A stretch of 64,000 nt of DNA from Centipeda felix (GTDB lineage Bacteria; Bacillota; Negativicutes; Selenomonadales; Selenomonadaceae). The stretch's first letter is position 1. The number at the start of each line of letters is the position of its first letter. This document shows positions 36,317 through 37,661 of this stretch, piece by piece. The position numbers and the translations under genes were made by a program. Location: NCBI RefSeq assembly GCF_900186465.1, contig NZ_LT891958.1:372001-436000 (forward strand). Reading direction: 5' to 3'. The notes below the pieces were generated by a model, which had not been told where the DNA came from, made no database searches, and was given only the letters and a program-made list of their open reading frames with translations.

Positions 36317-36332
36317 CTTTGTGTACAAACAA

Positions 36333-36374
36333 CTATATATAGATTTTCTATTGACGTTCATACACAAGATGTTG
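36333..36374 (+). promoter_or_regulatory. Tandem NrdR boxes overlapping the nrd promoter
   Basis: CTATATATAG at 36333-36342 matches the ten-base NrdR core perfectly. ACACAAGATGTTG (core 36365-36374) matches eight of ten. The boxes are 32 bases start to start, the three-turn spacing typical of NrdR operators. The first lies just before the -35 and the second abuts the -10. Confidence 0.7.
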
Positions 36375-36380
36375 TATAAT
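36351..36380 (+). promoter_or_regulatory. Strong sigma-70 promoter of the nrdD-like/nrdG pair
   Basis: TTGACG, 18-base spacer, TATAAT. About 72 bases before the start codon. Near-consensus and embedded between NrdR boxes and downstream of DnaA boxes. Confidence 0.8.
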
Positions 36381-36452: not shown

Positions 36453-36737
36453 ATGATCGTCAACGACATCAACGTCACCGTCAACGGACTTTCGGACATC
36501 ACCCCGCACGAGGTTGAGAACTACATCGCCTACATCGAGGGGCAGACCAACGAGAAGCTCGACCGTCTCTCCATTACGGGAGCGGACGACGGCCGCGTCA
36601 CCCTCGGCTACGAGATGCGTCAGCCGAAGTTCGAGCGCATCCGCCGCATCACGGGCTACCTCGTTGGCACGACGGATCGCTGGAACAACGCAAAGCAGGC
36701 AGAAGAGCATGAGCGTGTCAAGCACGGACTCCACTGA
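36453..36737 (+). CDS. Stand-alone NrdD C-terminal (glycyl-radical-like) domain protein
   Basis: 94 aa. The C-terminal third (RRITGYLVGTTDRWNNAKQ) resembles the extreme C terminus of class III ribonucleotide reductase NrdD, including an R-x-T-G-Y-L glycyl-radical motif with Gly68. The zinc-binding CXXC pairs that precede this motif in full-length NrdD are absent, and there is no room for the ten-stranded catalytic barrel. Overlaps nrdG by 29 bases and shares its NrdR/DnaA-equipped promoter, so a role in anaerobic dNTP synthesis is well supported by context. It could be a spare radical domain (compare GrcA for pyruvate formate-lyase), one piece of a split enzyme, or a regulatory relic. AAAGGAGAATGAAGC precedes ATG. 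Confidence 0.7.
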   Translation: MIVNDINVTVNGLSDITPHEVENYIAYIEGQTNEKLDRLSITGADDGRVTLGYEMRQPKFERIRRITGYLVGTTDRWNNAKQAEEHERVKHGLH

Positions 36738-37236
36738 GATCCGTATCGCAGGGATTGCGCGCGACTCCATCGTCGACGGTGAGGGGATACGGCTAACCGT
36801 CTTTACCCAAGGCTGCCCGCGCCGCTGTCCCGGCTGTCACAACCCTGATACACAGCCGACGGACGGCGGACGGGTCACCACCGTCGGCGCGGTGCTTCAA
36901 GACCTCGACGCCAATCCTCTTCTCACAGGGCTCACCCTCAGCGGCGGTGAGCCCTTTCTGCAGCCCGCAGCACTGCTTCCTCTCGCACGCGCGGCGCACG
37001 AACGGGGTCTCGATGTCTGGAGCTACACAGGCTACACCCTTGAGGAGCTGCGTGCACAGAAAAACCCCGCCGTGGATGCCCTCCTCGACGAGCTCGACGT
37101 CCTCGTCGACGGCGACTACCGCGAGGAGGAGCGCGACCTCACCCTCCATTTTCGCGGCTCGCGCAACCAGCGCGTCATCGATCTCGCTGCAACGCGCGCG
37201 ACGGGGCGGCTGACCCTGCGGTACACAGATGAATAA
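36709..37236 (+). CDS. nrdG: Anaerobic ribonucleotide reductase activating protein
   Basis: Radical SAM activase that generates the glycyl radical of class III reductase. 175 aa. GEGIRLTVFTQGCPRRCPGCHN contains the CX3CX2C cluster (Cys36, Cys40, Cys43); TLSGGEPFLQPAALLPL near residue 80 and VWSYTGYTLEEL near residue 105 follow the NrdG/PFL-activase pattern. Start overlaps the nrdD-like gene; GAAGAG lies just upstream. No full-length nrdD is in the window. Confidence 0.94.
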   Translation: MSVSSTDSTEIRIAGIARDSIVDGEGIRLTVFTQGCPRRCPGCHNPDTQPTDGGRVTTVGAVLQDLDANPLLTGLTLSGGEPFLQPAALLPLARAAHERGLDVWSYTGYTLEELRAQKNPAVDALLDELDVLVDGDYREEERDLTLHFRGSRNQRVIDLAATRATGRLTLRYTDE

Positions 37237-37367: not shown

Positions 37368-37661
37368 ATGGCAACAAAGACAACACGAGCGCAAAACCTG
37401 AAAAAGGCACAGGATTTTGCGCTGAGCATCGACGCGACCACGGAGATCGGAATGCTCGAGATCTCAGCAACGCAGGCGATCCGCGTCTCGATCATCCGCT
37501 CGCGCGGGCGGCGCTATACTGCCATCACACCATTCTGGCGCAAGAAGAGCGATGATATGTGGAAACCGAAGGCTCCCGTTTGGGTGCCCGCAGAGCACAC
37601 GGGCGAAATCGCAGACTATTTGGCACGCGCTGCAAAAAAGATTCATGAAAAAGAGGAATAA
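37368..37661 (+). CDS. Small basic hypothetical protein
   Basis: 97 aa, Lys/Arg-rich at both ends, no signal or membrane segment. The middle (IRVSIIRSRGRRYTAITPFW) reads as a beta-hairpin pair with aromatic residues, loosely like small nucleic-acid-binding folds such as PC4, but I do not claim homology. GGGAGGAAATAAGT gives a strong ribosome site, and it has its own promoter-like sequence and terminator, so it is a real monocistronic gene. Confidence 0.8.
   Translation: MATKTTRAQNLKKAQDFALSIDATTEIGMLEISATQAIRVSIIRSRGRRYTAITPFWRKKSDDMWKPKAPVWVPAEHTGEIADYLARAAKKIHEKEE

Follow-up and report, generated by a model that had tools for sequence, protein, structure and literature searches.

A 94-residue protein encoded with nrdG in Centipeda felix is the probable radical-bearing subunit of a split class III ribonucleotide reductase

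The 64,000-nucleotide stretch of Centipeda felix DNA analysed here (contig NZ_LT891958.1 of assembly GCF_900186465.1, positions 372,001 to 436,000; hereafter the window) contains a small open reading frame (ORF) of 94 amino acids (aa) that overlaps nrdG, the gene for the radical S-adenosylmethionine (SAM) activase of class III ribonucleotide reductase (RNR). A preliminary description of this sequence had proposed that the small protein resembles the radical-bearing C terminus of the class III enzyme NrdD, that it lacks the catalytic barrel and the zinc site, and that its gene overlaps nrdG and shares its promoter. The two positional claims were borne out, as 29 nt are common to both genes and a single near-consensus promoter lies 5' of the small gene. 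The features of the locus, in window coordinates, are as follows.

36351..36380, + strand, sigma-70-like promoter (TTGACG-18-TATAAT, agreeing with the consensus at 11 of 12 positions) shared by the small gene and nrdG
36453..36737, + strand, 94-aa ORF with an ATG start, predicted stand-alone glycyl-radical subunit (profile and structure-database matches, dN/dS, family-wide survey)
36453..36626, + strand, N-terminal beta-alpha-beta-beta domain, residues 1-58, putative docking domain (AlphaFold2 pLDDT 84-92; E20 and Y24 invariant)
36627..36725, + strand, residues 59-91, the glycyl-radical domain, a homologue of the C terminus of NrdD (Pfam NRDD 532-562; 8P23 chain 706-738)
36654..36656, + strand, codon of Gly68 in RRITGYL, the glycine predicted to bear the radical (the same in all 60 sequences; aligned to the P. 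copri RITGYL glycine)
36709..37236, + strand, nrdG, radical SAM activase (TIGR02491, 138 bits, cut-off 126.1)

Residues 58-91 of the small protein matched positions 532-562 of the 562 positions of Pfam NRDD (E 2.7e-8; 33.4 bits, cut-off 26.2). The likeness to NrdD was confined to this radical-bearing C terminus, in agreement with the preliminary description, and neither a catalytic barrel nor a zinc site was found in the 94 residues. The C-terminal ends of the NCBIfam NrdD models also matched (best E 7.4e-13), far under the whole-protein cut-offs because the small protein corresponds to a fragment of the NrdD model; NCBIfam held no model of the small half that we could find. Apart from NRDD, no Pfam family scored over its cut-off, the class I radical subunit included. 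When compared with P. copri NrdD (PDB 8P23), residues 59-91 aligned with chain residues 706-738 (E 3.3e-8), the segment RITGYLVGTTDRWN was identical in the two C termini, and Gly68 aligned with the glycine of RITGYL. The radical glycine of P. copri NrdD is Gly711 according to the accessible part of PMC11226230, and the offset of four from the 8P23 chain index presumably reflects residues of the construct.

A search of the window genome (17 contigs, completeness estimate 100%) with PF13597 gave two matches only. One was the small ORF (532-562) and the other was an NrdD, L001, encoded on a different contig (G000:C14:9374-11242; 1-532, 572 bits). L001 is about 754 residues long from its likely start and contains the ATP-cone, the catalytic barrel and the zinc ribbon. 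Its C terminus reads ..CGYTGLIENECPHCHRKETAFGTMTVPRMKD, with the stop codon directly after ..DRDPVCGYTGLIENECPHCHRKETAFGTMTVPRMKD, and the zinc-site pattern CGY..CPHCH at its end is the same as that of a full-length relative (L003). The alignment of L001 with P. copri NrdD (E 7.9e-170) took in both cone and barrel and reached as far as the zinc CxxC, chain residue 702. On the 8P23 chain the large half therefore extends to residue 702 and the small half begins at 706, which puts the break after the zinc ribbon and before the radical loop. The RxTGYL radical glycine is absent from the large subunit and present solely in trans, as Gly68 of the 94-aa protein. Frameshifting or read-through of a full-length nrdD was considered and rejected, no tail being found past the NrdD stop in the window genome. 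A full-length NrdD with its own RxTGYL glycine was also looked for in the genome, the sole NrdD of which ends after the zinc ribbon. Neither a class I/II large subunit (PF02867) nor a monomeric class II RNR (TIGR02505) was detected in this genome, nor did the PF13597 search reveal an alternative glycyl-radical tail. The only NrdG over cut-off is the one encoded beside the small gene, and it is of the ordinary kind.

A free-living cell needs an RNR, and class III RNR chemistry needs the glycine. As no other RNR was found, the tail-less NrdD has to be functional, and the 94-aa protein is the one glycine tail that the genome was found to encode. Because the two proteins cover the profile in a complementary manner (1-532 and 532-562) and the genome has no third match, we conclude that the 94-aa protein is very probably the radical-bearing subunit of a split class III RNR, a case built from sequence comparison and a single-chain model. 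The catalytic domain, zinc site and NrdG expected of a class III RNR are all present, with the enzyme divided between two genes instead of forming a single chain. The preliminary description had left open whether the small protein was a repair part or one half of a split enzyme, under the name of an autonomous domain. The split arrangement was upheld and the repair function was not, at least in the window genome; since the sole NrdD lacks the glycine tail, the small protein would be an obligate half rather than an autonomous spare.

Comparison of 14 copies of the small gene from the genus (91 pairs) gave a median ratio of nonsynonymous to synonymous substitution rates (dN/dS) of 0.012, with a maximum of 0.094; median dN was 0.009 and median dS was 0.590. 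The median ratio points to purifying selection and indicates that this is no chance ORF. It also bears on the possibility that the small gene is what decay has left of a broken nrdD, the tail-less NrdD being degenerate too, to which the restriction of NrdD likeness to the last ~33 residues would lend itself. This explanation is extremely unlikely given the dN/dS value, the gene's own promoter and start, its conserved N-terminal domain, the lack of any other RNR found in this free-living cell, and the retention of the arrangement throughout the family. The same promoter, start and N-terminal domain, together with a distance from nrdD of ~248-579 kb in the seven genus genomes that carry both genes on one contig, disposed of the concern that the ORF is merely the frameshifted tail of a full-length nrdD.

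The N-terminal portion of the small protein was analysed in an alignment of 60 selected long forms from split, orphan and phage loci, with near-copies and further relatives set aside. All 60 matched Pfam NRDD, and no glycyl-radical family of the pyruvate formate-lyase (PFL) type was among their matches at E 0.01. Residues invariant in all 60 were E20 and Y24 in the helix of the N-terminal domain, as well as F60, R64, R65, I66, T67, G68, Y69, L70, G72, K81, E84, R88, V89 and H91. Residues 1-58 of the window protein matched no Pfam or NCBIfam family over cut-off, and in the 60 relatives this domain gave only stray single-member matches to unrelated families. In an AlphaFold2 single-chain model based on the 60 relatives, residues 1-58 formed a strand-helix-strand-strand fold with a predicted local distance difference test (pLDDT) score of 84-92 by blocks of ten. 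Foldseek returned no match to this domain with E <0.1 in the PDB and none with E <0.15 among viral models. The best VIA-align match, the ToxR periplasmic domain (Z 5.6, root-mean-square deviation 3.3, 59 residues aligned), and HPF-like chains with Z near 4 were rejected as relatives, both being at the level of a common alpha/beta arrangement. As the VIA-align scores lie within that range, we assign the domain to no family. We infer that the N-terminal domain docks the small protein on NrdD.

We then considered how far the arrangement extends. The small protein of the nearest named relative, Selenomonas flueggei ATCC 43531, was 100% identical to that of the window, and all 14 genomes of the genus contained an NrdD ending at profile position 532 or 533 plus one small protein. 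A survey of 151 genomes of the family Selenomonadaceae identified 137 with a tail-less NrdD and, among the matches listed, every one of them had the stand-alone gene (128 whole, 9 interrupted). This count includes G026 and G101, in which the profile match passes in-frame stops to 552 and 548. The three genomes with only a full-length NrdD (G011, G030 and G052) had no stand-alone gene, and one further genome (G142) had the stand-alone gene and an NrdD cut by a contig end. Among the matches listed, 116 of the 137 had neither PF02867 nor a full-length NrdD; PF02867 occurred in 20 of the 151 family genomes and in none of the 14 from the genus. Full-length and tail-less NrdD occurred together in seven family genomes. 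G103, G133 and G150 had a tail-less NrdD and an interrupted stand-alone gene besides a full-length NrdD. Judged from sequence, the split arrangement is family-wide, taking in the oral Selenomonas and most of their relatives in the family.

Several observations weigh against the split-enzyme interpretation. The two genes do not form one operon in the window's genus, as they lie far apart. The radical loop and tail were modelled with low confidence in the single chain (pLDDT 46-60 by blocks), although this would be as expected for a loop that needs a partner. No class could be assigned to ten of the 151 family genomes (G023, G029, G031, G051, G077, G090, G108, G111, G139 and G143). Among them, G023 is 100% complete, has an NrdD that matches positions 1-478 only and no radical tail, gave a weak N-domain-like match (E 2.4e-5), and contains a class I/II RNR. 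Lastly, the small genes of genus g12 are broken directly after the glycine codon in several genomes. In nine genomes of this genus a few hundred bases interrupt the profile match at residue 67/68 (L274-L276 and L278-L280, from G133, G103, G121, G150, G148 and G146, and also L272, L273 and L277). Both sides were read in six genomes, where ..FERIRRITG and YLVGTTDRW flank the interruption. The interrupting sequence matched no Rfam family apart from one chance snoRNA match (E 0.16); it is possibly an unrecognised self-splicing element.

Two sites resembling NrdR boxes overlap the promoter of the small gene and nrdG. They were predicted from the sequence with an NrdR-box consensus.

36330..36345, + strand, NrdR-box-like site 1, CAACTATATATAGATT, part of the best box pair in the window
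36362..36377, + strand, NrdR-box-like site 2, ACACAAGATGTTGTAT, overlapping the -10 region

The pair has 7 mismatches in total, with starts 32 bp apart and a 16-bp spacer, and none of 20 shuffled windows contained a pair with 9 mismatches or fewer. In most bacteria NrdR boxes are separated by 15-16 bp (PMC12051234, as far as its available text goes), and the spacing at the small gene-nrdG promoter agrees with this range, as for a predicted member of the NrdR regulon. A box-like pair, 31 bp apart with a 15-bp spacer, was also present upstream of the L001 nrdD (p 0.08 in a local-shuffle test whose start point fell in the box region). The presence of such pairs before both halves speaks for the split enzyme, as do the neighbouring positions of the genes in other genera, the low dN/dS and the invariant residues of the small protein. 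Judged against local shuffles, a pair preceded the small gene in all six named-record Selenomonas genomes and in 9 of 16 other Selenomonadaceae; none was found upstream of seven split genes from metagenome-assembled genomes (MAGs; L167-L169 and L171-L174). Pairs also preceded all nine type A nrdD genes tested and four of nine type B genes other than L001, type B being the window's form of NrdD and type A that found in neighbour loci. Co-transcription with the activase, suggested by position, would also suit a small protein that acts as a regulator or decoy for NrdG or NrdD while the tail-less NrdD uses another radical source. However, the whole RRITGYL motif is kept, the genome yielded no alternative tail and class III chemistry needs the glycine, so that this role is highly unlikely. 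Directly 3' of nrdG, a 97-aa ORF (window 37368-37661) matched no Pfam or NCBIfam family over cut-off.

The two types of NrdD shared 50-53% identity (five loci). In the genus of Pectinatus cerevisiiphilus (L166) and in further genera of the family, nrdD, the small gene and nrdG lie side by side in that order, and in six genomes 56-117 nt separate the end of the NrdD profile match from the start of the small gene. We constructed a tree from 70 NrdD cores with the tail cut off (73 were chosen; L266 gave no match and L075 and L088 were too short), using a quick method with no bootstrap, so that some branches are weak. Type B formed one clade (support 98) whose sister was full-length NrdD of the same family (L020 and L031). 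Type A adjoined full-length NrdDs from elsewhere in the class (L148 and L149), and full-length L003 and L004 were nested within it. The split or fused label required 10 changes on this tree, and therefore detachment of the radical domain, or its re-fusion, seems to have occurred repeatedly. A separate tree of the small proteins (96 columns), too weak for rooting, placed 25 Selenomonadaceae split proteins and four phage or prophage orphans apart from the rest.

Three genomes (G073, G063 and G081) contained both types of NrdD, each tail-less by its profile ends, but a single small protein and a single NrdG over cut-off; in G073 the C termini of both NrdDs were read directly. The simplest reading is that the two NrdDs share their radical subunit and their activase. 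By the same token, the simplest reading of the small gene-nrdG pair in the window is that it is the remnant of a type A operon whose nrdD was replaced by a type B gene elsewhere.

Past the zinc site, the tail-less NrdDs end in conserved extensions that are specific to each lineage (..VPRMK, ..HHVVIPR and ..REGEGV..LRKKYPDVP, read among the tail-less NrdDs of L006-L032, L150-L156, L261, L262 and L200-L236). These extensions are possible docking sites for the small subunit. They also bear on whether an ordinary NrdD is produced after translation through ligation or intein-like trans-splicing of the two halves. The near-absence of overlap between these complementary halves is what such rejoining would entail, but the lineage-specific extensions provide no common junction, and no Pfam family scored over cut-off with the N-terminal domain of the small protein (in a general Pfam search, intein families not being searched on their own). 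We regard rejoining as barely credible. In the type B NrdDs of G070, G124, G127 and G133 the profile match stops near position 265 and picks up again about 1 kb later in the same open frame (1095-1127 aa), which suggests that these inserts may be inteins. Long in-frame inserts were seen in several NrdDs of genus g12.

A scan of named genomes confirmed 572 relatives, of which the best 80 were classed. Among these 80, 14 were fused (13 ordinary NrdD tails and L210), 29 were split loci with NrdD beside them (28 also with NrdG), 8 were pairs of the small gene and NrdG with no NrdD nearby, and 29 had neither nearby. The MAG ORF L210:1663-2388, in which an NrdD barrel fragment runs into a long-form N-terminal domain and radical tail, is either an assembly artefact or a real chimera. 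A short split form of roughly 50-65 aa, without the N-terminal domain, was found in Coprococcus catus, Scatolibacter, many MAGs of Clostridia and Bacilli, and a Subdoligranulum plasmid. The plasmid locus (L127:1032-4111) encodes a tail-less NrdD of 783 codons, a radical domain of ~55 aa and NrdG.

Whole-genome checks were carried out for 22 of the 29 orphan loci and for 7 split loci, most of them in MAGs. In 16 of the 22 orphan genomes a full-length NrdD was accompanied by a separate long-form radical protein (L175-L180, L182, L183, L185, L187, L190, L191, L194, L195, L199 and L202). Two others, both Selenomonadaceae, had a tail-less NrdD, three had the small protein only, and one had an NrdD matching 1-545 with an adjacent domain, plus another. 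In G185 and G197, which belong to the window's class, the full-length NrdD and the stand-alone protein are encoded on one contig, which excludes contamination. The neighbours of the stand-alone gene in these two genomes and in G223 and G182 were cellular genes; second copies in G128, G066 and G094 lay near genes for terminase/portal, primase/helicase and endolysin. The stand-alone proteins that occur beside full-length NrdD are candidate spare parts, the RNR counterpart of GrcA/YfiD, and the GrcA-like idea put forward in the preliminary description thus finds a plausible setting elsewhere. It does not carry over to the window genome. There, a GrcA/YfiD-like domain repairing an otherwise complete, O2-cleaved NrdD is very unlikely, despite the 16 genomes above, G185 and G197, and the NrdR-box-like pairs present at 6 of 26 spare or orphan loci (the other 20 had none upstream). 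No NrdD with its own glycine was found in the window genome, leaving nothing to repair, and in the family the stand-alone gene tracks the tail-less NrdD and is absent from the full-length-only genomes; in the seven genomes with both kinds of NrdD the small protein could serve either. A repair role is thus refuted for the window genome unless its assembly missed a tailed NrdD.

Viral records were examined at 31 of 62 loci, namely those with no NrdD nearby and five with one. The small domain alone was found in 25 IMG/VR records (L063-L069, L071, L074, L076-L087, L089, L118, L123 and L124), five also had a tail-less NrdD, and one gave no match; many of the records are fragments and may lack an NrdD for that reason. 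Upstream of the phage orphans, 6 of 7 testable loci had no NrdR-box pair (the upstream sequence of L065 was too short). The phage-borne small domains are candidate spare parts for the host RNR and may represent the use of the same device by phages. In Eggerthella phage EL753P1 (OP172808.1, L125:3870-4084), the annotated nrdD is tail-less and is followed by a small coding sequence that ends inside the radical motif. The remaining radical domain is in another frame, and the gene is interrupted as deposited.

For the split enzyme we propose the following mechanism. NrdG would abstract a hydrogen atom from Gly68 of the small subunit, either alone or docked on NrdD. The beta-alpha-beta-beta domain would anchor the small subunit to NrdD in place of the lost covalent link, the loop would insert into the barrel of the tail-less NrdD, and the radical would be passed to the finger-loop cysteine. 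In ordinary NrdD the radical domain reportedly flips out to be activated and then returns (PMC12662201, in the portion available); a detachable domain would take this motion to its limit. O2 cuts the PFL chain at the glycyl radical (available text of PMC8683613). Were the same cleavage to occur here, a 94-residue cartridge would have to be replaced rather than an enzyme of ~750 residues.

By homology, the split enzyme has the same cone, barrel, zinc ribbon and RITGYL loop as the single-chain NrdD of P. copri (8P23), and an activase of the same family. It differs in that the radical loop is on a separate chain with a new N-terminal domain and in that a short new extension is present at the C terminus of the large chain. 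In class I RNR the radical-storing protein, NrdB, is likewise separate from the catalytic subunit, NrdA. That protein, however, is a ferritin-like metallo-subunit that operates by long-range electron transfer, and the small protein gave no match to class I. Small stand-alone glycyl-radical proteins are exemplified by GrcA/YfiD and by phage T4 vs.6, the latter presumably the Y06I of the literature. Like the small protein, these are used in trans (PMC8683613 and PMC1524935, each in its available part), and the N-terminal half of GrcA/YfiD aids binding, the role proposed here for the N-terminal domain. In contrast, GrcA/YfiD belongs to PFL and replaces the damaged domain of a complete enzyme, whereas the radical domain described here is normally absent from its enzyme and is homologous to NrdD rather than PFL. 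The split class II RNR NrdJa/NrdJb also has its chain distributed over two genes with a separate C-terminal part (PMC9669993 and PMC4520616, in the text open to us); unlike the present case it is an adenosylcobalamin enzyme, and the separated part is IscU-like or a zinc finger with no radical site. Six phage nrdD genes with divided reading frames are listed in the accessible part of PMC3653736, which ascribes most of them to introns, inteins or homing endonucleases, leaves phiAS4 unexplained and describes no autonomous radical subunit. A detached class III radical domain is not mentioned in the available portions of papers on RNR evolution (PMC9531940, PMC4390871 and PMC4493059) or of the RNRdb paper (PMC2795772). 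We found no class III split of this kind in the open-access literature, a search that most subscription papers lay outside.

More broadly, we propose tentatively, and with slightly more doubt than conviction, that class III RNR is modular in much of the Firmicutes: a radical cartridge would have been detached many times, one cartridge and one NrdG would drive two catalytic subunits in genomes such as G073, G063 and G081, relatives would serve as spare parts against O2 damage, and phage cartridges would sustain or take over deoxyribonucleotide (dNTP) synthesis in the host. Spare parts have been validated for PFL alone, in two cases, and others for further glycyl-radical enzymes are considered possible in the available text of PMC8683613; this question is now testable, as are the handover and the protection of an exposed glycyl radical. 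If the split-enzyme interpretation is correct, chemists could handle a glycyl radical independently of its enzyme, installing, isolating and swapping it, and the annotation 'NrdD' in a genome may denote an incomplete enzyme. It would also mean that most members of a bacterial family apparently have, as their only RNR, a glycyl-radical enzyme with a separate radical subunit.
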